Shown: positions 27,935-55,877 of the stretch, one piece after another
How positions within the stretch are numbered: position 1 is the first letter of the stretch
Layout of the letters: each line of letters starts with the position of its first letter
Assembly (NCBI RefSeq): GCF_001513675.1
Contig: NZ_CP013859.1
Location: 187,081 to 251,080 of the forward strand
Length of the DNA stretch: 64,000 nt
DNA from: Microbacterium sp. XT11
Lineage (GTDB): Bacteria; Actinomycetota; Actinomycetes; Actinomycetales; Microbacteriaceae
Reading direction: 5' to 3'
Made by a program: the position numbers and the translations under genes
The notes under the pieces: generated by a model
What the model saw: only the letters and a program-made list of their open reading frames with translations
What the model was told of the DNA's origin: nothing
Database searches by the model: none

Positions 27935-28527
27935 GCTCGTTCTCCTTCCGTGAGGAACCAGGTCTTGTGCGCTGCGACCGGCCCGAGGTCGTTCTGCAGT
28001 CGGCGCCGCGCCCGCATGAGACGCGTGCGCGCGGCCCCGGGCGTGAGGTTGACGACGCACGCCGCGTCGGCGACCGTCAGCCCGTCGAGAGCCGTGAGAG
28101 TGAGCAAGGCCGCATCCTTCGCATCGAGCCGGCTCAGCGCGTGCCTCAGGTGGACGCCCAGCACTTCCGCCTCGATGACGGTCACCGCCTCGTCCGCTGC
28201 ATCCGGTGCCGTGCCCTCCCGGGGCATCGCGGCAAGCAGACGCCGGTACCGGAGTCCCGCCCGCTTCTGGTTGCGCGCTGTGTTGGCGACCGTGACGAGA
28301 AGTCAGGGCAGTACCGAGCCGTCGACGACTGTGACGCTCCGTCGGCGACGCCACAACTCGAAGAAGGCCATCGCGGTCGCGTCATCCGCGTCGTGGCTCC
28401 GCTCGACCAGCGCGGCGGCCCTGCGATGGACCCGATCTCGATGACGGCGGAAGAGATCGGCGAAGGCCTCGCCGCTGCCGTTGCGTGCGCTCAGCCAGAT
28501 CTCGGCCTCGTCGTTGTCTTCACTCAT
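27931..28527 (-). pseudogene. sigma-70 family (ECF-type) sigma factor interrupted by a stop codon
   Basis: The frame encodes region 2 from residue 1 (AEIWLSARNGSGEAFADLFRRHRDRVHRRA, then DDATAMAFFELWRRR) and region 4 (LRHALSRLDAKDAALLTLTALDGLTVADAACVVNLTPGAARTRLMRARRRL). Between them, a TGA at 28303-28305 stops translation after residue 74 at GSVLP; relatives have Trp here (SVLPWLL), so a single TGG to TGA change explains it. Both flanking halves remain in one frame and otherwise intact, so the mutation is probably recent. Region 4 alone could still be made from a downstream ATG at 28227. Confidence 0.82.
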
Positions 28528-45217: not shown

Positions 45218-46102
45218 TCAGAGCGGCTTGCCTCCGGTCACCGGCAGTACGGCGCCGGACACGTATGACGACTCCCCTGCCGCCAGGTACACGTACGCAC
45301 CGGCGAGCTCCGCCGGCTGTCCCGCACGCCCGAGCGGCGTATCGGAGCCGAAGCTCTCGAGCTTCTCGGCGTCCCAGCCCGTCGCCGGGATCAGCGGCGT
45401 CCAGATCGGCCCCGGTGCGACGGCGTTCACGCGGATGCCGCGAGAGCCGGCCTCCGCCGCCAGCGCCTTCACGAAGGCGACCTGCGCTGCCTTGGTCATG
45501 GCGTAGTCGATGAGCCCCGGCGAGGGGTTGAAGGCCTGGATCGAGGCGGTGACGATGATGCTCGACCCCGGCTTCAGGTCGGGGTACGCCGCGCGCGCGG
45601 AGAACAGCATGCCGGCGAGGTTCGTGTCGAAGACGCGGCGCATGTCCTCGGTGCGCAGGCTTTCGAAGCCCTCGATGTCGTGCTGGTATCCGGCGTTGAG
45701 CACGAGGATGTCGAGGCCGCCCAGCGTACGGCGGGCCTCCGCCACGGCATCCGTCGCGAAGGTCTCGTCGCGCACGTCGCCGGCGAGGCTGAGGCCCTTC
45801 CGCCCGGCGTCGCGCACGTGCTCGAGGGTCTTGTCGGCATCCTCCTGCTCCTCCGGCAGATGCACGATGGCGACGTCGGCTCCTTCGCGCGCGAACGCGA
45901 TCGCGACGGCTCGGCCGATACCCGAGTCGCCGCCGGTGATGAGGGCCTTCCGGCCTTCGAGCCGGCCGTGTCCGACGTAGCTCTCCTCGCCGTGGTCGGG
46001 GGTGGGGGCCGTCTCGTCGGTGTGGCCGGGCTGATCCTGCTGCTGCTCGGGGAAGCCCTCCTCGCGGTGGGCGTCCCGGGGGTCTGTGGTGCTTTCGGTC
46101 AT
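45218..46102 (-). CDS. general-stress SDR oxidoreductase
   Basis: A 294-residue SDR of the YdaD/GSP39 type, recognised by its hydrophilic 45-residue N-terminal extension (EEGFPEQQQDQPGHTDET, YVGHGRLEGRKALITGGDSGIGRAVAIAFAREGADV in part). Catalytic residues are in VTASIQAFNPS and YAMTK; the end is YVSGAVLPVTGGKPL. Members are induced by general stress in Bacillus and relatives. GAGGAGGAG lies before the ATG. The GTCAACCCCC motif at 46169-46180 precedes it. Confidence 0.9.
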   Translation of the reverse strand: MTESTTDPRDAHREEGFPEQQQDQPGHTDETAPTPDHGEESYVGHGRLEGRKALITGGDSGIGRAVAIAFAREGADVAIVHLPEEQEDADKTLEHVRDAGRKGLSLAGDVRDETFATDAVAEARRTLGGLDILVLNAGYQHDIEGFESLRTEDMRRVFDTNLAGMLFSARAAYPDLKPGSSIIVTASIQAFNPSPGLIDYAMTKAAQVAFVKALAAEAGSRGIRVNAVAPGPIWTPLIPATGWDAEKLESFGSDTPLGRAGQPAELAGAYVYLAAGESSYVSGAVLPVTGGKPL

Positions 46103-46146
46103 CGGGGATCTCTCCTCCTCGGTCGTCTGCAGTCCATCCAGCCTGC

Positions 46147-46180
46147 GAGGTCGCACGAGATGCCCCCAGGGGGTTGACAA
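46147..46180 (-). promoter_or_regulatory. shared stress motif, SDR unit
   Basis: On the minus strand TTGTCAACCCCC (46180-46169) is followed, 27 bases after the GTCAAC hexamer, by CAGGCT, a -10-like box. The same layout occurs upstream of four other units between 48847 and 51350. The promoter drives the SDR gene whose ATG is at 46102. Confidence 0.5.
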
Positions 46181-46193
46181 TCCCGACGGACGC

Positions 46194-47834
46194 TCAGTGC
46201 TCCGCGCCCGCACGGAACCAGCGGAACCCCCAGCCGTCGAGCGCGACCCGGAACACGCCGTCTTCGGCTTCGACAGGGCCGACGGGTTCGAGGAGATCGA
46301 TGAGGCGATCGGGCCCGACCGCATCCTCGTCGATCCGGACCTGCCGCGCGTCGTCGCCGACGTTGTGCACGGCGAGGAACGTCGCCTCATCTGTGCGCAG
46401 GGAGTGCACGAGCACCTGAGGGTCTCCGACGTCGTGCAGCACGAGCTCGCCCCACGCGATCTCCGGCGCGGACCGGTACCGCGCGATGAGCGTCTTGATG
46501 AAGCTGAGCAGCGAGTCGGGCGAGCGCAGCTGGTCGTGCACGTTGACGTGCTCCGGCCCGTAGCCGCCGCCGGGCAGCTCGCGGACGAGCCGCGAGGGGC
46601 GGGCCGTCGAGAACCCGGCGGTGGGGCCGCGCCGCCACTGCATCGGCGAACGCACCGCCCTGCGGTCGCCCATGCCCTCGAGCTCGCCCATGCCGATCTC
46701 CTCGCCGTAGAAGAGCAGAGGAGCGCCGGGCAGCGAGAACAGCAGGCTGTACGCGAGCCGGAGGCGCCGCGGCTCGCCCCGCAGCATCGGGGCGAGCCGC
46801 CGCACGATGCCGCGTCCGTACACGCGTTGGCGCTCATCGGGCGCCAGGGCCTCGAACACCTCCTCGCGCTCCTCGGCGGAGAGCATCTGTAGCGACAGCT
46901 CGTCGTGGTTGCGCAAGAAGGTCACCCACCCTTGCCGCACGTCGACGGTGGGCCGCCGCTTCAGCGACTCGGCGATCGGCCTCGCGTCGCCCCGCACGAG
47001 GGCGAGGAAGATCGCCTGCGCCGTCTCGAAGTCGAACTGCAGATCGAGCTCCGTCTCATGAAGGCCGAAGTACTCCCTCTGCTCCTGCTGCGGCAATCCC
47101 ACCTCGCCGAGGAGCACGGCGTCACCGCGGCGACGCCCGACGAAGCGATGCAGCTCGCGGAGGAATCCGTGCGGATCGGTCTCATCGGCCGCGCCCGGCG
47201 GGTTGATGAGGAACGGCACGGCGTCGACACGGAAGCCGTCGACGCCGAGCTGCGCCCAGAACCCGATGATGCGTGCGATCTCCTCGCGGACGCGGGGGTT
47301 GGCGAGGTTGAGGTCCGGCTGGTGCCGGTAGAAGCTGTGCAGGTAGTACTGCCCCGAGCGCTCGTCCTTCTCCCAGCTGCTCGCCTCCTCGCCGGGGAAG
47401 ACGGTGGGCTGCGCATTGCGAGGAGGCTTGTCACGCCACACGTAGTAGTCGCGGTACTCCGAGTCCCGCGAGCGGCGAGCCTCTACGAACCACGGATGCC
47501 GGTCCGACGTGTGGTTGAGCACGAGGTCGATGATCACGCGGATGCCGCGACCGTGCGCGATCCGCAACAGCTCGACGAAGTGGCCCAGGTCCCCCGCTCG
47601 CCGGTCGACGTTGTAGAAGTCGCTGATGTCATAGCCGTCGTCGCGATCGGGCGTCGGCTGGAAGGGCATGAGCCACAGGCATGTGACGCCGAGATCGGCG
47701 AGGTAGTCGACGCGGCTCGCGAGACCCTCGAGATCGCCGGCGCCGTCGCCGTTCGAATCCTGGAACGTCTCGATGTCGAGGCAGTAGTACACGGCAGTGC
47801 GCCACCACAGGTCGCTGATGTCCGCAGCTCTCAC
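46194..47834 (-). CDS. GH13 alpha-amylase / trehalose synthase-like enzyme
   Basis: A 546-residue glycoside hydrolase family 13 enzyme. The conserved regions are visible: VIIDLVLNHTSDRHPW (I), GVDGFRVDAVPFL with the catalytic Asp (II), AVLLGEVGLPQQ with the acid Glu (III), VTFLRNHDELSL with the third Asp (IV). DSNGDGAGDLEGLASRVDYLADLGV and the absence of a secretion signal match cytoplasmic trehalose-synthase-like members. It lies 46 bases after the LLM gene, so the two form an operon for osmotic or desiccation stress. GGAG six to nine bases before the GTG. Confidence 0.9.
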   Translation of the reverse strand: MRAADISDLWWRTAVYYCLDIETFQDSNGDGAGDLEGLASRVDYLADLGVTCLWLMPFQPTPDRDDGYDISDFYNVDRRAGDLGHFVELLRIAHGRGIRVIIDLVLNHTSDRHPWFVEARRSRDSEYRDYYVWRDKPPRNAQPTVFPGEEASSWEKDERSGQYYLHSFYRHQPDLNLANPRVREEIARIIGFWAQLGVDGFRVDAVPFLINPPGAADETDPHGFLRELHRFVGRRRGDAVLLGEVGLPQQEQREYFGLHETELDLQFDFETAQAIFLALVRGDARPIAESLKRRPTVDVRQGWVTFLRNHDELSLQMLSAEEREEVFEALAPDERQRVYGRGIVRRLAPMLRGEPRRLRLAYSLLFSLPGAPLLFYGEEIGMGELEGMGDRRAVRSPMQWRRGPTAGFSTARPSRLVRELPGGGYGPEHVNVHDQLRSPDSLLSFIKTLIARYRSAPEIAWGELVLHDVGDPQVLVHSLRTDEATFLAVHNVGDDARQVRIDEDAVGPDRLIDLLEPVGPVEAEDGVFRVALDGWGFRWFRAGAEH

Positions 47835-47880
47835 AGGGTCTCCTCTCGTCGACCGGACGTCTTCTCCTGGCGGGCTGCCG

Positions 47881-48840
47881 TCAGAGCACCTCGCGCAGCG
47901 CCGGAAGGAGCTCGGTGCCGCACCGTCGCAGGAAGCCTGCCTGATCGGTGCCGACGTGATGCAGGTACACGTGATCGAAACCGCGGGCCGCGTGGGCGAT
48001 GCGCTCGGCCAGGGCCTCGGCCGACCCGGAGATCAGCACCGCCTGGCGGAGCTTCTCGTCGGTCGGATCGGCCAGGGCCTCGAAGTCCTCCGGCTGCTGG
48101 AGGTCCCACATCACCTCGGCCGGTGCCGTCGCGTGCGACCACTGCTCACGAGCCACCTCCAACGCCCGGGACAGGGTGTCCTCGAGGCTGATGTGGATCT
48201 GCAGCACCGCGTCGCCGCGGCCGCCCGCACCGCGGTACGCCTCCCGCGTGCGCTGCGTCGCTGCGGCATCCGATCCGACCGTGATGAGGCCGTCGGCCCA
48301 GCCGGCCACCCAGGTCGCGGTGTCGTCGCTCACGGCCGCACCCAGCAGCGGCGGCGGCGATGCCGGAAGACTCCAGATCCGAGCGTCGTGCACGCGGATC
48401 TCTCCGTCGACCGTGACGCGCTCTCCGGCGAGCAGCCGCCGGATCGCCGTCACGCTCTCGAGCAGGCGCCGCTCGCGCGCGGGCTTCTCCGGCCACGGAT
48501 CGCCTGTGACGTGCTCGTTGAGGGCTTCACCGCTGCCCAGGGCCGCCCAGAACCGTCCGGGGAACATCTCCTCCACCGTCGCGAGCGCCTGAGCCGTGAT
48601 GACGGGGTGGTATCGCTGGCCCGGTGCGGTGACCAGGCCGATCGGGAAGTCCGTGCGGGCGAGGGCAGCTCCGATCCACGACCACGCGAATCCGGACTCC
48701 CCCTGCGCCGTGCTCCACGGCGCGAGGTGGTCGGAGCACATCGCCGCGTCGAAGCCCACCGTCTCTGCGAGCCGCACGGCTGCGAGGAGCATGCCCGGCG
48801 GTATCTGCTCGTGGGACGCGTGATATCCGATGACCGTCAT
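47881..48840 (-). CDS. LLM-class flavin-dependent oxidoreductase (TIGR03885 type)
   Basis: A 319-residue F420/FMN TIM-barrel oxidoreductase: MTVIGYHASHEQIPPGMLL, FDAAMCSDHLAPWS, GESGFAWSWIGAALA, TAPGQRYHPVITAQALATVEEMFPGRFWAALGSGEALNEH in part. This string of motifs fits the TIGR03885 subgroup. The ATG at 48840 was chosen because the family begins there and CAAGAT lies six bases upstream as a leaderless -10. First gene of the LLM-GH13 operon, under the GTCAACCCC motif. Confidence 0.88.
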   Translation of the reverse strand: MTVIGYHASHEQIPPGMLLAAVRLAETVGFDAAMCSDHLAPWSTAQGESGFAWSWIGAALARTDFPIGLVTAPGQRYHPVITAQALATVEEMFPGRFWAALGSGEALNEHVTGDPWPEKPARERRLLESVTAIRRLLAGERVTVDGEIRVHDARIWSLPASPPPLLGAAVSDDTATWVAGWADGLITVGSDAAATQRTREAYRGAGGRGDAVLQIHISLEDTLSRALEVAREQWSHATAPAEVMWDLQQPEDFEALADPTDEKLRQAVLISGSAEALAERIAHAARGFDHVYLHHVGTDQAGFLRRCGTELLPALREVL

Positions 48841-48846
48841 GCCGCG

Positions 48847-48887
48847 ATCTTGACTCGTCTTCCCGTTCCCGGACACGGGGTTGACAA
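48847..48887 (-). promoter_or_regulatory. shared stress motif and leaderless -10, LLM-GH13 unit
   Basis: TTGTCAACCCC (48887-48877, minus strand) precedes CAAGAT (48852-48847) with 27 bases between GTCAAC and the box; the LLM ATG follows after six bases. The leaderless distance independently supports this -10 assignment. Confidence 0.55.
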
Positions 48888-48970
48888 GCCGAACGCGTCA
48901 CGGCGACACGTATACGGACGCACCGGTCGCTGAGCCGGCGCAGCCGCCGACACACCGGGTCGGTTCAGAG

Positions 48971-49318
48971 TCAGTCGGCGGGGCCGCCCGCGATCTCGCC
49001 GCCGCTCGATCCTTCGTGGACCTCGGCGGGCTCCGGAACCAGGTACAGGCCTCCGGGGGAGTTCGCCGTGAACGCGAGCGCTTCGACCCAGGCCCTGTTG
49101 ATCGAGGGCTGCCGGCTGCCGTAGTACTTGAAGACGAGCGAGCTGGCCGGCTGCATCCAGACCGTGACGCGCCCGCCGCCCACACTGGCGTCCTCACGCC
49201 AGCTGAACGGGAACGGCTCTCCCCGCCGCAGCTTCGTGGTGATGACCAGCTGCAGGTGCGTGAGCGCGCGGTCCTCGATCTCCGTCTTCACTCCGCCTTC
49301 GTAGATGAACTTACCCAT
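48971..49318 (-). CDS. DUF7882 family protein, copy A
   Basis: A 115-residue protein: MGKFIYEGGVKTEIEDRALTH, LQLVITTKLRRGEPFPFSWRED, VTVWMQPASSLVFKYYGSR and AWVEALAFTANSPGGLYLVPEP. This is an actinobacterial family, now DUF7882, sometimes mislabelled as DNA ligase. It is divergent from a paralogue at 49400; the shared core (THLQLVI / AHLKVVI, TKLRR-x-E-x-F-x-x-SW, WM/L-x-P) shows ancient duplication. Role unknown; its setting suggests stress. Confidence 0.8.
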   Translation of the reverse strand: MGKFIYEGGVKTEIEDRALTHLQLVITTKLRRGEPFPFSWREDASVGGGRVTVWMQPASSLVFKYYGSRQPSINRAWVEALAFTANSPGGLYLVPEPAEVHEGSSGGEIAGGPAD

Positions 49319-49399
49319 TGAGACTGCTCCTCGCATCGATCCGTCGCCCCACCGACATGGTCTGTCGGAAACATCCCCACCTCGGTAGCGTAGAGCCTC

Positions 49400-49825
49400 A
49401 TGGGGGCACTCTTTTACGACGATCATGAGGAGCCGATCCTCATCGACGACACGACCTTGGCCCACCTCAAGGTCGTGATCGCGACGAAGCTCCGGCGCAA
49501 CGAGAGCTTCACCGTGTCGTGGAAGCATGGCGACGACGACCCGAGCGGCCGCTCGACGATCTGGCTGCACCCGGCCATCCCCTTGCGCTTCGTCTTCGAC
49601 GATCCCGTCGCCCCGCCCCTGAACCCCGAGTTCATCACGTCGCTCGCGAACGCGGCGAACAGCAGCGGGGGCCTGACGGTGCCGGCGGGCGACGTCATCT
49701 CGAGCGGGCTGCCGTCCGGCGCCGCCGGCGGCAGGTCCGAGAACACGCGTCCGCAGGCCGCGAAGGCGGATGCCGTGCCGGAGGCGGCCTCCGGCGACAC
49801 CGCGGCTGGCAGCGCCCGAAGCTGA
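49400..49825 (+). CDS. DUF7882 family protein, copy B
   Basis: A 141-residue paralogue of the divergent gene at 48971-49318: MGALFYDDHEEPILIDDTTLA, HLKVVIATKLRRNESFTVSWKHG, IWLHPAIPLRFVFDD and ITSLANAANSSGGL. Its C-terminal 45 residues are a Gly/Ala/Ser-rich flexible tail not found in copy A. A TAGCGT box lies nine bases before the ATG, with GGAAAC further upstream, so its promoter may differ from those of the GTCAA-motif units. Confidence 0.78.
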   Translation: MGALFYDDHEEPILIDDTTLAHLKVVIATKLRRNESFTVSWKHGDDDPSGRSTIWLHPAIPLRFVFDDPVAPPLNPEFITSLANAANSSGGLTVPAGDVISSGLPSGAAGGRSENTRPQAAKADAVPEAASGDTAAGSARS

Positions 49826-49826
49826 A

Positions 49827-49865
49827 GTCAACCCCCTGATGGGACGGCTCGCGGTCGCCTAGCGT
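49827..49865 (+). promoter_or_regulatory. shared stress motif, FHA unit
   Basis: GTCAACCCCCTG starts at 49827 and TAGCGT occupies 49860-49865, 27 bases after the first hexamer. The FHA gene begins at 49898 behind GGAGGAGG. Motif and spacing match those of the neighbouring units. Confidence 0.55.
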
Positions 49866-49897
49866 CGAAGCTCCGAGACCGGAGGAGGCTGCGGCTG

Positions 49898-50395
49898 ATG
49901 AACGCGCGACACATCGACGAACGACCGGAGAACGCCGAGGCGCCCGAGACGACCCACGCCGAGTACGGCGCAGGCAACCCGCGGCTGCGCATCACGCGCG
50001 ACGGCGAGCGGACCGAGTTCCCCCTGGTGGCGGATGAGGTGCGCATCGGTTCGGCCGAGGGCAACGAGCTGAGACTCGCCGACACCGACCCGCTGCACGC
50101 CACGGTCACGCACGACGACAGGGACGAGTACGTCCTCGCCCTGCACGGCGAGGGCGAGATGAACTCGAACCCCGGCGCCGACGCCACGCACCCCGGGGAG
50201 GCGACGGAGACGCTCCGCACCGGCTCGCGCTTCACGGTCGGACGCTGGACGCTCGTGTTCGCGCGAGACGAGTTCGCCGATCACGGCCGTCCCGCCGGCG
50301 GGCGGCTGGGCGGCGAGTACTCCGACCAGCCGCTCCAGCCGCCGCGCCCCGACTACAGCGCCGACGCTCACTCCGACTCCGCCGCCGACACGTGA
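49898..50395 (+). CDS. FHA domain-containing protein
   Basis: A 165-residue protein. Residues 28-125 resemble a forkhead-associated phosphothreonine-binding domain: PRLRITRDGERTEFPL, DEVRIGSAEGNELRLADTDPLHATVTHDD (Arg-Ile-Gly and Ser loops), and TGSRFTVGRWTLVF. Tails on both sides are hydrophilic. It may read a Ser/Thr kinase signal. Its last 28 bases overlap the convergent DUF6766 gene. Confidence 0.75.
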   Translation: MNARHIDERPENAEAPETTHAEYGAGNPRLRITRDGERTEFPLVADEVRIGSAEGNELRLADTDPLHATVTHDDRDEYVLALHGEGEMNSNPGADATHPGEATETLRTGSRFTVGRWTLVFARDEFADHGRPAGGRLGGEYSDQPLQPPRPDYSADAHSDSAADT

Positions 50396-51045
50396 TGCGG
50401 GATCCCGACGGGCTTCGACTCGGCTGATCCGCGCTGCCGCAGGTAGATCGAGAACGCCACCATGGTGCCGACGGCGAGGAACTCGGATTGCCAGTTCTGC
50501 AGGGTGCGATCCCAGAAGTCCGGCGAACCGACGTAGTCGAGCCATGTGAGCGGAGCCGCGCCGTGCATCGCGTTCTCCTCGTTCATCACGACGAGGCCGG
50601 CGAGCGACTGGGCGAGCCAGGAGAGCACGAAGATCGCCCCCATCGTGAGCAGCAGCGAGTTGCCGAACACCATGGTGCGCCAGCCGCCGGCCGCCGCCCA
50701 CGGCGGCGAGTCCGGTCGCACATGGGCGCCGACGAGCTGATCGGCGTCGCTTCCCGGACCCTGATCACCGGGCTTCTTCGATTCGGGCGAGCCGCGCTGC
50801 ACGAGCCACACGGTGGCCGCGATGAAGAGGAAGAACTGCAGGAACTCCGACTGCCAGTTCTCCGCGACGTCCACGAGGAAGTCGGACGACGTGACGAACT
50901 CGCCGAAGCCGATCGTCGGCAAGCCGTGGTCGGCGAGCTCCGCGTTGTTGCGGAAGAATCCGGCGACCGACTGCCCGGCGAGGGCGAGCACGAACAGCGC
51001 GAGGAAGAACAGGCTCAGCCCGTTGTCGCGGATGGCGCGGCGCAT
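50368..51045 (-). CDS. DUF6766 membrane protein with internal duplication
   Basis: A 225-residue protein with four membrane helices. It consists of two homologous halves: half 1 SLFFLALFVLALAGQSVAGF to NWQSEFLQFFLFIAATVWLVQRGSPESK, half 2 MGAIFVLSWLAQSLAGLVVM to NWQSEFLAVGTMVAFSIYLRQRGSAESK (both quoted in part). The repeated NWQSEFL and QRGS-x-ESK strings show an ancient tandem duplication. Family DUF6766, unknown function, common in stress gene sets. It follows a 37-residue membrane protein by one base. Confidence 0.82.
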   Translation of the reverse strand: MRRAIRDNGLSLFFLALFVLALAGQSVAGFFRNNAELADHGLPTIGFGEFVTSSDFLVDVAENWQSEFLQFFLFIAATVWLVQRGSPESKKPGDQGPGSDADQLVGAHVRPDSPPWAAAGGWRTMVFGNSLLLTMGAIFVLSWLAQSLAGLVVMNEENAMHGAAPLTWLDYVGSPDFWDRTLQNWQSEFLAVGTMVAFSIYLRQRGSAESKPVGIPHHVSAAESE

Positions 51046-51046
51046 G

Positions 51047-51160
51047 TCAGCGGCCCGCCAGCGGAAGGACGATCATCACGGCGAGGCCCACGGCGATGAT
51101 GGCCGCCCACGTCCAGAACATGGCTCTCATGCCGACGGTCTCGGTCTCCGGTTCACCCAT
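51047..51160 (-). CDS. 37-residue single-helix membrane protein
   Basis: A small gene starting MGEPETETVGMRAMF with one membrane helix (WTWAAIIAVGLAVMIVLPL) and ending AGR. AAAGGA lies eight bases upstream of the ATG and the stop is followed after one base by the DUF6766 ATG, so the two are cotranscribed and coupled. Probably a small partner of DUF6766 in the membrane. Confidence 0.75.
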   Translation of the reverse strand: MGEPETETVGMRAMFWTWAAIIAVGLAVMIVLPLAGR

Positions 51161-51251
51161 GCGGTCATTCCTTTCTCTGCGTCACCCCGTGCGGACGGAA
51201 CCCGTCGCCGACGCGGTCGTGCGGTCGGACGGCGCGCTGCACGAGGCGGCC

Positions 51252-51350
51252 TGAGATCAGGGTCGTGCAGAAGGCGGCCCGCCGCCAGAGGCTTGACGGG
51301 CGTGCCCGGCCCTGTCAATCCCCTCGGGCGGCGTCGACGCGCGGCGATAC
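51252..51350. promoter_or_regulatory. back-to-back stress motifs, DUF6766 and CBS units
   Basis: On the minus strand GTCAAGCCTCTGG (51297-51285) leads to GACCCT 27 bases after the hexamer, towards the DUF6766 unit. On the plus strand TGTCAATCCCCTC (51313-51325) leads to TACCGT (51349-51354) towards the CBS gene, one base further. The two motifs face apart, 17 bases between their GTC triplets, like a divergent promoter with a shared activator. Confidence 0.5.
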
Positions 51351-51402
51351 CGTCACGACAGGGGAACCGACCGACACGCACCGACATGTGAGGACGAGCA
51401 CG

Positions 51403-51816
51403 ATGACCACGACACGAGAGATCATGACGCCCAACCCGCGCTGCATCGGCGAGAACGATTCGCTGCGGATCGCGGCATCCGTGATGGCCGACCTGGATGT
51501 CGGCGCCCTCCCGATCTGCGGGGAGGACGGCAAGCTCAAGGGGATGCTCACCGACAGGGACATCGTCGTGAAGGGCATCGCGATGGGGAGGGATCCGGAG
51601 AGCACTCCGGCGGGAGCGCTGGCGAACGGCAGGCCCGTGACGGTGTCGTCCGACGACGACGTGCGCGTCGCCCTCGACCTCATGCGCGAGCACCAGGTCC
51701 GGCGCCTGCCGGTGATCGAGGACCGTCTTCTCGTCGGCATCGTGAGCCAGGCCGACGTAGCGTTGACGCTGTCGGCTGCCGCGACGGGCAAGACGGTCGA
51801 AGGCATCTCGCGCTGA
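51403..51816 (+). CDS. CBS-domain pair protein
   Basis: A 137-residue protein made of two CBS motifs: REIMTPNPRCIGENDSLRIAASVMADLDVGALPICGEDGKLKGMLTDRDI in part, and GRPVTVSSDDDVRVALDLMREHQVRRLPVIEDRLLVGIVSQADV in part. Such stand-alone Bateman modules bind adenine nucleotides and are typical of stress and dormancy regulons in actinobacteria. GAGGACGAG precedes the ATG. It is followed after 34 bases by the CinA-like gene, likely the same transcript. Confidence 0.88.
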   Translation: MTTTREIMTPNPRCIGENDSLRIAASVMADLDVGALPICGEDGKLKGMLTDRDIVVKGIAMGRDPESTPAGALANGRPVTVSSDDDVRVALDLMREHQVRRLPVIEDRLLVGIVSQADVALTLSAAATGKTVEGISR

Positions 51817-51850: not shown

Positions 51851-52420
51851 ATGGAAGAGGTCGACAGGCTGAGCGCCGTCGCGAGGGACCGAGGTCTGCG
51901 CGTGTGCGTGGTGGAGTCGCTCACATCGGGCAAGCTGGCCAGCGTGGTCGGCGCGGGCGAGGGAGCATCCGAGTGGTTCGCCGGCGGCATGGTCGCCTAC
52001 CTCACGGATGTGAAGGAGAGGGTGCTCGGGCTCACGCCGGGGACCGATCCGTGCTCCGCGGCGTGCGCGGAGCAGCTTGCGACGGGCGCTCTCTCCCTGT
52101 TCGACGCCGACGTGTGCGTGTCGACCACGGGCGTGGGCGGCCCGGGCCCCGAGGGTGGGCACCCTGCCGGCACCGTGTATCTCGGCTGGGCCACCCGGTC
52201 GGCGACCGGCCATCGCGGCCTGTCGTTCGCGGGCGGACCGGAGGAGGTCATGGATGCCGCGGTGGAGGCGGCCGCGCGGCTGCTGGCGTTCCACGCCGAG
52301 AGCGTGCAGCCGGCCGGACCCCTGCGCAGCGGCGCAGGTCAGCCCGGCACCACGCCGATGCGCAGCGGAGCCCCGGACGCGGACGCCGCCTCCATCGCCG
52401 CATCCAGCTCGGCCAGCTGA
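51851..52420 (+). CDS. CinA-family (PncC-like) protein
   Basis: A 189-residue single-domain CinA C-terminal protein, expected to be a nicotinamide-nucleotide amidohydrolase: CVVESLTSGKLASVVGAGEGASEWFAGGMVAYLTDVKERVLGL in part, CAEQLATGALSLFDADVCVSTTGVGGPGPEGGHPAGTV in part. The usual ESCTGG is ESLTSG here, a change near the active serine that may alter activity. The last 30 residues are a low-complexity Ala/Ser tail whose DNA overlaps the convergent dehydrogenase by 82 bases. Confidence 0.85.
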   Translation: MEEVDRLSAVARDRGLRVCVVESLTSGKLASVVGAGEGASEWFAGGMVAYLTDVKERVLGLTPGTDPCSAACAEQLATGALSLFDADVCVSTTGVGGPGPEGGHPAGTVYLGWATRSATGHRGLSFAGGPEEVMDAAVEAAARLLAFHAESVQPAGPLRSGAGQPGTTPMRSGAPDADAASIAASSSAS

Positions 52421-53849: not shown

Positions 53850-54992
53850 TCAGGACATCGGCAACCGCGCGAACACCTGCCACTCGTCGCCCGAGGGCCC
53901 CGCGCTGAACTCTCCGCTCGCTCCGATGACCCGCTCCGCCATGCGGTTCAGTCCGGTCCCGCTCGAGGGCAGGTCGTGCCGGGGAGTGTCGGGAAGGGGG
54001 CTGCGGATGGTCAGCGTAGCAGCGTCGTCATCGGTGCGCAGACGGATGGTCACGGGACCCGGCCCCGCGTACTTGAGGATGTTCGTGGCCGACTCGCGCA
54101 CGATGCGGGCGAGCACGATCTCGGCGACCCGAGGGATCCGGTCGTCCTGCGGATCGCCTTCACACTCGACGGGATGGCCGGCGGCCTCGAACTCGGCGCG
54201 CGCCTCGTCGATGGCGGCACCGAGGTCGCCGGTCTGAGGGCCGGCCGCGCGCGGCCCGTCGTCGGCGAGCTCGATGACGAAGCGGAGGTCGGCCATCGCC
54301 TTGCGCGCGGCGACGCGGATGGCCTCCTGGGACTCGGCGCTCACCGCGGGGTCGTCGAGCATCTGCACGTGCAGGGCCACCACCGTGAGATGGTGCGCGA
54401 TGCTGTCATGCAGTTCGCCTGCGATCCAACGCCTCTCGGCGAGGACGGCCTGGCGCTCCTGCTCGGCACTGGCAGCCAGGCGCTGCTCGAGGCGGCGTCC
54501 ACGAGCGGACGCCAGCCGGAGCGCGTACCCGATCGCGCCGGAGACGGCGGCGAGGATGAGGTGGATGCCCACGTTGACGGGCACCCGGGTGTCCCCGTAG
54601 GCGATGATCGCCGAGGAGACGAGGAACACCCCGATATACGAGAAGATCAGTGACGCCCAGCCCAGCCGCATGACCATCCCCGCCGCGAAGGCGGCGGCGG
54701 TGAGCACCTGGGTCTCCGTTCCGGTGAGGAAGGAGAGGGCGAAGACGACGGCGAGTGCGATCGTCGCCACGACGGGCGACCAGAGATACAGCGCGAACAC
54801 GACCGTCGACGCGACGCTGACCAGCAGCGCCCCCAACTCGACGCCCGGCGGCAGGAAGCTGCCGATGATGTCGAGCGCAACGACGATGCCGATGATCCCC
54901 AGGACCACGATCCGCTCGATGACACCGAGCTTCTCTCCGCGGCTCAGCCTGAGGATGTCCGCGTCATCTCGAATCGACTGGTCGAAGGGCAC
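53850..54992 (-). CDS. HisKA_3-type sensor histidine kinase
   Basis: A 380-residue membrane kinase. Residues 25-150 hold about five or six membrane helices (IVVLGIIGIVVALDIIGSFL and following), then RRWIAGELHDSIAHHLTVVALHVQML with the phosphoacceptor His, and an HATPase domain with ARIVRESATNILKYAGPG (N box) and PSSGTGLNRMAERV (G box). HisKA_3 kinases pair with NarL/LuxR regulators such as the divergent gene at 55224. The membrane part has no large outside loop, suggesting sensing within the membrane. GTG start. Confidence 0.9.
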   Translation of the reverse strand: MPFDQSIRDDADILRLSRGEKLGVIERIVVLGIIGIVVALDIIGSFLPPGVELGALLVSVASTVVFALYLWSPVVATIALAVVFALSFLTGTETQVLTAAAFAAGMVMRLGWASLIFSYIGVFLVSSAIIAYGDTRVPVNVGIHLILAAVSGAIGYALRLASARGRRLEQRLAASAEQERQAVLAERRWIAGELHDSIAHHLTVVALHVQMLDDPAVSAESQEAIRVAARKAMADLRFVIELADDGPRAAGPQTGDLGAAIDEARAEFEAAGHPVECEGDPQDDRIPRVAEIVLARIVRESATNILKYAGPGPVTIRLRTDDDAATLTIRSPLPDTPRHDLPSSGTGLNRMAERVIGASGEFSAGPSGDEWQVFARLPMS

Positions 54993-55223
54993 GGTTCAGT
55001 ATCTCCTTTTCGCCAGCTATTCTTAGCGGTAGACACCGAAGAAGTAGCCAACCTGCTGCCAAAAAGTCATAGTAATTCACCCCCTAATCTGGGTCTTTCG
55101 TTCAGGAACTCTTATATCCTCGCGGCATCGCCCGCGTTGCACATCTGCCTTTAGACCAGACTTGGTTAGACGAAGGTCTATACGCGCTCGGGGGCGATCC
55201 GGGGGCGCCGTTAGGCTTCTCTC
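54993..55223. promoter_or_regulatory. AT-rich divergent promoter region of the two-component pair
   Basis: A 231-base spacer, markedly richer in A and T than the genes around it, with no gene of its own. It has a TAGGCT box (55212-55217) six bases before the regulator ATG and a TTAGACC ... GGTCTA inverted repeat around 55151-55182 that could be the response-regulator site. AGGAG-like sequence for the kinase lies near 55010. Confidence 0.45.
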
Positions 55224-55877
55224 ATGCCCGAGATCCGCGTTCTCATCGTCGACGACGACCCCCTCGTGCGCTCCGCCCTGTCGCACTTCGTCTCGCGCGA
55301 TCCGGAGATCGAGGTTGTCGGCGAGGCGGACAACGGCCACGAGGCGCTGGCGTTCCTCGAGAAGGATCGGCCGGACGTCGTCATGATGGACGTGCAGATG
55401 CCCGGGATGAACGGCATCGAAGCCACCGCGGCCATCGCCGAGCGCTGGCCGGACGTACGGGTGCTCGCCGTCACCACCCTCGACGGCAGCGACACCGTGC
55501 TGCCCATGCTGAGCGCCGGCGCGTCGGGTTACCTGCTCAAGGACTCCAGCGCCGAGAGCATCGTCGCCGGCGTGCGCGAAGTGCACAGCGGCGCGAGCTC
55601 GCTCTCGCCGCGCATCGCGTCCCTCCTCGTCAAGCACGTGCGCACCACCGAGCCGCTCGGCGCGGCCGACGCCCTCGAACCGCTCACCGAGCGTGAGTCG
55701 GAGGTGCTGGATCGGCTCGCGCAGGGCATGTCGAACGCGGAGATCGCGCAATCCCTCATCGTGTCGGAGGGCACGGTCAAGGCGCACCTCGGCCGGATCA
55801 TGGCCAAGTGGAACGTGCGCGACCGCGTGCAGATCCTCGTCACCGCGGCGCACGCCGGCCTCGTCGACTTCCGCTGA
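55224..55877 (+). CDS. NarL/LuxR-family response regulator
   Basis: A 217-residue regulator. Receiver domain: VLIVDDDPLVRSAL with the acidic pocket, VVMMDVQMPGMNG with the phosphoacceptor Asp, LAVTTLDGSD, GYLLKDSS with the conserved Lys. C-terminal GerE HTH: LTERESEVLDRLAQGMSNAEIAQSLIVSEGTVKAHLGRIM in part. Leaderless start (TAGGCT, six bases, ATG). Divergent from its probable kinase, where most such pairs are in one operon. Confidence 0.92.
   Translation: MPEIRVLIVDDDPLVRSALSHFVSRDPEIEVVGEADNGHEALAFLEKDRPDVVMMDVQMPGMNGIEATAAIAERWPDVRVLAVTTLDGSDTVLPMLSAGASGYLLKDSSAESIVAGVREVHSGASSLSPRIASLLVKHVRTTEPLGAADALEPLTERESEVLDRLAQGMSNAEIAQSLIVSEGTVKAHLGRIMAKWNVRDRVQILVTAAHAGLVDFR

Follow-up and report, generated by a model that had tools for sequence, protein, structure and literature searches.

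How can a set of stress-type genes be switched on together from promoters that show no good −35 hexamer? This question is raised by a 64,000-nt stretch of the genome of Microbacterium sp. XT11 (the window; coordinates refer to the whole of it unless stated otherwise), in which the word GTCAAnCC, followed by an nAnnnT box, lies upstream of five stress-type units (SDR, LLM, FHA-like, DUF6766 and CBS). We suggest that GTCAAnCC placed 33–34 bases before a sigma-A-type −10 box is probably the binding site of one activator that replaces the missing −35. Judged from sequence, support for the proposed cis-element and the set of genes under it is very good, a single activating protein is likely, and the label "general stress", which is based on gene content, is partly supported.

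A spaced element before five stress-type units

The sequence-only reading had placed a motif and a −10-like box before each of the five units, and on re-reading the positions all of them were found there, with the box starting 33 bases from the G of GTCAAnCC in four cases and 34 bases from it for the CBS gene. Its statement that no good −35 is present also held, as no hexamer with more than 3/6 matches to TTGACA was found at a spacing of 15–19 bp in the five promoters (best candidates 2–3/6). The ATG of the LLM gene indeed lies six bases past its CAAGAT box, and this gene is predicted to be leaderless. The features are as follows, with box offsets counted from the G of GTCAAnCC.

46168–46178, minus strand: motif GTCAACCCCCT of the SDR gene (position match)
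46140–46145, minus strand: predicted −10 box CAGGCT of the SDR gene (+33)
45218–46102, minus strand: SDR-family oxidoreductase gene (Pfam adh_short_C2)
48875–48885, minus strand: motif GTCAACCCCGT of the LLM gene (position match)
48847–48852, minus strand: predicted −10 box CAAGAT of the LLM gene (+33)
47881–48840, minus strand: LLM (Bac_luciferase) gene (Pfam)
46194–47834, minus strand: GH13 alpha-amylase-type gene behind the LLM gene (Pfam), likely in the same unit
49827–49837, plus strand: motif GTCAACCCCCT of the FHA-like gene (position match; orthologous promoters aligned)
49860–49865, plus strand: predicted −10 box TAGCGT of the FHA-like gene (+33)
49898–50395, plus strand: FHA-like gene (single sub-threshold Pfam hit, Yop-YscD_cpl)
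51287–51297, minus strand: motif GTCAAGCCTCT of the DUF6766 unit (position match)
51259–51264, minus strand: predicted −10 box GACCCT of the DUF6766 unit, weak (+33)
51047–51160, minus strand: small membrane-protein open reading frame (ORF; 37 aa) between motif and DUF6766 gene
50368–51045, minus strand: DUF6766 gene (Pfam)
51314–51324, plus strand: motif GTCAATCCCCT of the CBS gene (position match)
51348–51353, plus strand: predicted −10 box TACCGT of the CBS gene (+34)
51403–51816, plus strand: CBS-domain gene (Pfam)
51851–52420, plus strand: CinA-type gene behind the CBS gene (Pfam), likely in the same unit

The 37-aa ORF before the DUF6766 gene has a similar, motif-bearing counterpart in relatives. 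Between 51293 and 51318, the motifs of the DUF6766 unit and the CBS gene are arranged back to back at a distance of 16 bases; relatives also have a divergent motif pair, with spacings that differ from those of the pair in the window.

GTCAAnCC occurs six times in the window versus 4.21 expected (standard deviation 2.29), and 26 of 100 shuffles reach six; the bare word is not enriched there over shuffles. Five of the six occurrences are intergenic, in a window of which only 9.8% is non-coding by gene calls (from a simple purpose-written codon-usage caller, whose intergenic and coding flags err both ways). All five have nAnnnT at +33 or +34, and the sixth (3590, minus strand), within a coding region, lacks one. 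The part above chance is place plus spacing, not the word itself.

Recurrence across Microbacterium and within one genome

We then turn to 57 loci selected through the FHA-like gene, independently of the motif (54 from Microbacterium and one each from a Microbacteriaceae bacterium, a Homoserinibacter and a Nocardioides metagenome-assembled genome; 1.11 Mb, 90% coding). They contain 136 intergenic and 38 coding GTCAAnCC sites, and nAnnnT follows at 32–34 bases in 135/136 of the former versus 17/38 of the latter, several of these 17 looking like promoters inside over-long ORF calls. The stricter TAnnnT starts at +32, +33 and +34 in 1, 40 and 24 of the 136 intergenic sites; elsewhere between offsets 8 and 54 it is absent. 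By comparison, 150 permuted words gave a mean of 11.8 intergenic hits and 0.23 TAnnnT boxes, and the sole high one, AGTCAnCC (25 boxes), overlaps the motif itself. After removal of sites at least 70% identical over 65 bases, 111 intergenic sites remained, all of them with nAnnnT (77 at +33, 32 at +34 and 2 at +32) and 51 with TAnnnT, which upholds the earlier claim of a shared cis-element with fixed geometry. In an alignment of 30 FHA-like promoters, non-redundant and selected by the presence of GTCAAnCC, columns 5, 8, 9 and 10, which the selection did not fix, are 90–100% identical, and most flanking columns are 30–70% identical.

The element points towards genes, and motif and box are concentrated before certain ones. 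Among 32 gene clusters with at least eight members in the 57 loci, 7 have them upstream of some members (FHA-like 39/53, SDR 34/41, DUF6766 15/19, CBS 12/24, CinA 6/36, LLM 4/8 and transferase-like 3/12) and 25 have them before none. Smaller motif-bearing clusters comprise SRPBCC, DUF7218/Rho_N, DUF4383, CorA, PfkB and FAD-oxidoreductase genes. In Microbacterium sp. NIBRBAC000506063 (L292), an SDR/FHA-like/DUF7882 group with motif sites is located on a plasmid.

In the XT11 genome (one contig, 3,475,315 bases), GTCAAnCCCnnG occurs 33 times versus 15 for its reversed control, and the looser GTCAABCCY 104 times versus 87; the pattern GTCAABCCCB proved too loose. Boxes were scored at 101 of the 104 GTCAABCCY sites (40 intergenic, 61 coding). 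We found nAnnnT at 32–34 in 21/40 intergenic versus 6/61 coding sites (Fisher p = 5e-6) and TAnnnT in 11/40 versus 1/61 (Fisher p = 1.2e-4), with a called gene at most 300 bases away for 18 of the 21 boxed intergenic sites. One site flagged as coding falls in the promoter region of a CsbD gene located ~7 kb outside the window. Further genes at boxed sites, by Pfam, encode a Dps-like ferritin, DUF6458, BrkB, a Ser/Thr kinase, an iron-containing redox enzyme and DUF4383, the last with a DUF6098 gene running divergently. Reading of the sequence added small acidic proteins, a membrane protein resembling acyltransferases and an M20-like peptidase. Judged by gene content, stress-type targets recur genome-wide and across the genus (Dps, CsbD, SDR, CBS and others). 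In both sets the boxed form of the motif prefers intergenic DNA. The initial observation is confirmed and is larger than first described, and its interpretation as one regulator of a general-stress regulon is, on these data, partly supported.

Common descent or base composition might produce such a pattern with no regulatory role, and two facts would suit this: the congener loci are orthologous, and the bare word is not enriched in the window. However, sites less than 70% identical over 65 bases retain the box, unlinked genes of one genome carry motif plus box, and permuted words behave otherwise, which makes an artefact extremely improbable.

Two other sites of the genome depart from the common layout. 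At one (L108, C1:529216, minus strand), GTCAACCCCCTC is followed by TAnnnT at 43 bases, a shift of roughly one helical turn; the gene was read as YtxH-like and has no Pfam hit. At the other (L082, C1:10632–10716, minus strand), three copies of GTCAACCCT lie within 85 bases before one gene, none of them boxed.

Anatomy of the element and mode of action

From 50 boxed sites, chosen with A and T fixed in the box (unlike in the 57-locus and non-redundant counts), we derived the consensus tGTCAA(C/G)CCC(C)T (tGTCAASCCCCT), an asymmetric word of 11–12 bp followed by 21–22 unconserved bases, whose columns hold about 0.1 bit or less; the commonest box is TAGCGT-CG. No dyad, direct repeat or −35 was seen in these 50 aligned sites. 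Among the 111 non-redundant sites, start codons lie 44–47 bases after the G in 8 cases and 35–43 bases after it in 3, with none at 48–51, and the cluster at 44–47 is as expected of leaderless transcripts from the predicted +1. If transcription starts at a predicted position 6–7 bases past the box, the motif is centred at about −40. It would then span about −45 to −35 relative to the predicted start, upstream of a −10 of sigma-A type and in the region used by class II activators, as the sequence-only reading had proposed.

Constant spacing to the −10, weak boxes and a missing −35 together suggest an activator working with sigma-A RNA polymerase. Under this model, transcription would start ~45 bases past the G, which puts the motif at about −45 to −35. 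The bound protein would contact or reposition region 4 of sigma-A (class II activation or sigma adaptation) and recruit RNA polymerase. A stress or slow-growth signal may activate the predicted protein, which would jointly turn on redox-enzyme, Dps, CsbD, CBS, DUF4383, FHA-like and kinase genes. Several findings weigh against the model. Box letters are weak at many sites (TAnnnT at 65/136 intergenic sites of the 57 loci), these loci are largely orthologous, and the box is missing at 19/40 intergenic sites of the XT11 genome. Beyond the genus, only 6 of 29 SDR loci have strict motif plus box, and in G239, from another genus, there are two distinct boxed sites among 44 loci. No regulator was identified among the candidates examined (response regulator, WhiB, DUF7882 and motif-bearing genes).

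The sign of regulation could also be the reverse, with the motif as an operator: a repressor bound at −45 to −35 would keep RNA polymerase out while conditions are good and come off the DNA under stress. The site does overlap the −35 region, where repressors can act, and geometry alone holds no information on sign; promoters without a −35 are nevertheless expected to be weak unaided, and a spacing to the −10 held at 32–34 is needless for an operator, and we regard repression as unlikely.

The activator model resembles known class II sigma-70 promoters of the CRP type, where the activator site is a 22-bp dyad centred at −41.5. Shared features are a site next to and over the −35 position, a fixed distance to the −10 and a poor or absent −35; the sigma-A-type −10 with poor −35 is present here (nAnnnT in 111/111 sites, no −35 in 50). 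In contrast, the Microbacterium word is asymmetric, 11–12 bp long and, by the predicted start, centred near −40. Two actinobacterial systems are also relevant. Mycobacterial PafBC has sigma-A promoters read via a −26 motif (PMC11804915); the similarity is that a dedicated motif substitutes for the −35 at promoters of housekeeping sigma-A, and the difference is that this motif lies at −26, not at about −45 to −35. AfsR replaces the −35 contacts of sigma region 4 at promoters with poor −35 and −10, its box consisting of two 11-bp direct repeats centred at −29.5, and the 3′ repeat of SARP boxes lies 8 bp from the −10 (PMC10936776). The proposed substitution of −35 contacts by an activator would be of this kind. 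The PafBC and AfsR motifs lie nearer the −10 than the Microbacterium motif. Neither geometry was found, as there is no conserved −26 motif (inter-element columns of about 0.1 bit or less) and no conserved repeat in columns 12–31.

No description of the motif was found in the literature, judged from titles and abstract openings and mostly outside subscription journals, and none of the publications containing the motif letters, among the matches listed, concerns bacterial promoters. The element would help to locate promoters in GC-rich genomes, where a −35 is difficult to recognise. Its predicted binding protein would be a further candidate among actinobacterial regulators that redirect sigma-A.

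Sigma factors

A CGTC ending is typical of the ECF −10 consensus. Many boxes read TAGCGTCG, ending in CGTC, and ECF-type genes lie within ~2.5 kb of three sites in the XT11 genome, as might be expected if an alternative sigma factor read GTCAAnCCCC as its own −35. The spacer of ~23 bases from CCCC to box is, however, overlong for one sigma factor, and an ECF geometry for the motif fails on spacing. In addition, the A and T that matter most in a sigma-A −10 are present in the nAnnnT of 135/136 sites, and no SigB/F/G protein exceeds its cut-off in the XT11 genome or among 80 family genomes. An alternative sigma factor is accordingly quite improbable.

The XT11 genome has 13 sigma-region-2 hits. 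Of six run through NCBIfam, two scored over the cut-off (RpoD and a SigH-type protein) and four fell short of it (a SigJ-like protein, a further ECF and two FliA/WhiG-like proteins); the remaining hits were classed by eye, from sequence, as ECF-type genes or remnants. Within the window, a sigma-region-2 match at 28261–28455 (minus strand) continues through a single in-frame TGA, around which two distinct ORFs were called, and looks like a broken ECF sigma gene. TIGR02980 (SigB/F/G) was over the cut-off in 0/80 family genomes, XT11 included, with the caution that eight of these score 210–226 bits versus a cut-off of 234; two of the eight (G215 and G224) carry the motif in strict or degenerate form. 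It was over the cut-off in 27/99 order genomes, and many order genomes outside the family also lack it. A stress sigma factor behind these promoters appears unlikely.

SigB and SigF regulons of Bacillus and Streptomyces include gene kinds such as Dps and CsbD. The Microbacterium targets are of similar kinds, with different promoter letters and, in XT11, no SigB/F/G-class sigma over the TIGR02980 cut-off. The element bears on how Microbacterium and related bacteria respond to stress, apparently with no sigma factor of the SigB class. We tentatively raise the wider possibility, somewhat short of an even chance, that the general stress response of Microbacteriaceae runs through a DNA-binding sigma-A adaptor that reads the asymmetric GTCAASCCCCT at −45 to −35 and replaces a stress sigma. 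If true, this family, most of which is without a SigB-class sigma, would use a stress master regulator instead of a stress sigma factor.

Candidate regulators

The promoter code yields ~20 candidate genes in the XT11 genome and a bait for the regulator. The nearest candidate is a LuxR-type response regulator (55224–55877), which with its kinase takes up 53850–55877, adjoining the island, an adjacency kept in many congeners (kinase cluster in 33/57 loci, regulator in 17/57). Unrelated neighbours, however, share the same conserved adjacency, and the motif has no dyad, so that NarL-type geometry fails on symmetry. As a universal regulator it was rejected, since none of eight genomes outside the genus that have the motif gave a match at E ≤ 1e-50 (G197, G215, G058, G239, G223, G217, G224 and G195; motif strict in six and degenerate in two). 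We consider its role here very improbable.

In WhiB7-type partnership, a Wbl protein sits on sigma region 4 and reads DNA just upstream of the −35. The genome has four WhiB genes, and no GTCAABCCY occurs in the loci around any of them, which rejects them as motif-bearing candidates (0/4) and has no bearing on binding. Two divergent DUF7882 paralogues (48971–49318, minus strand; 49400–49825, plus strand) lack the motif and stand beside stress genes in many loci. As a DNA-binding candidate DUF7882 was set aside, as the AlphaFold model of the 48971–49318 paralogue suggests a mixed alpha/beta fold in which no helix-turn-helix was seen (best mean predicted local distance difference test score 81; other four models 49–54). 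Foldseek found no PDB match to the model at E ≤ 0.001.

Reading of the clusters and of six full loci revealed no transcription factor among the motif-bearing genes. Among conserved neighbours that lack the motif are the kinase/regulator pair and, in 31 loci, a GntR-type gene. The presence of a Ser/Thr kinase and the FHA-like protein under one promoter code may hint at phospho-signalling. In 26 aligned sequences of the FHA-like protein (49898–50395), an N-terminal TTH is invariant and a C-terminal stretch, ADHGRP.GGR, is conserved, features that we take to be reminiscent of the phospho-switch proteins GarA/OdhI.

Range beyond the genus

Outside the family but within its order, 59 GTCAAnCCCCT sites were scored; 19 are intergenic, and none of these 19 has nAnnnT at 32–34, in what is a small sample from among the matches listed. 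In other genera of Microbacteriaceae, the six SDR loci with strict motif and box (32–34) are L166, L176, L177, L187, L190 and L192. The upstream letters of several such loci were read by eye; so judged, the motif looks degenerate in L191 and L194. In L172 it precedes a gene other than SDR. Putative weaker versions of the element are present in some other genera of the family. At the SDR promoter of two loci from one other genus (L168 and L170), a CCCC...GGGG inverted repeat directly before TAGCGT replaces the motif.

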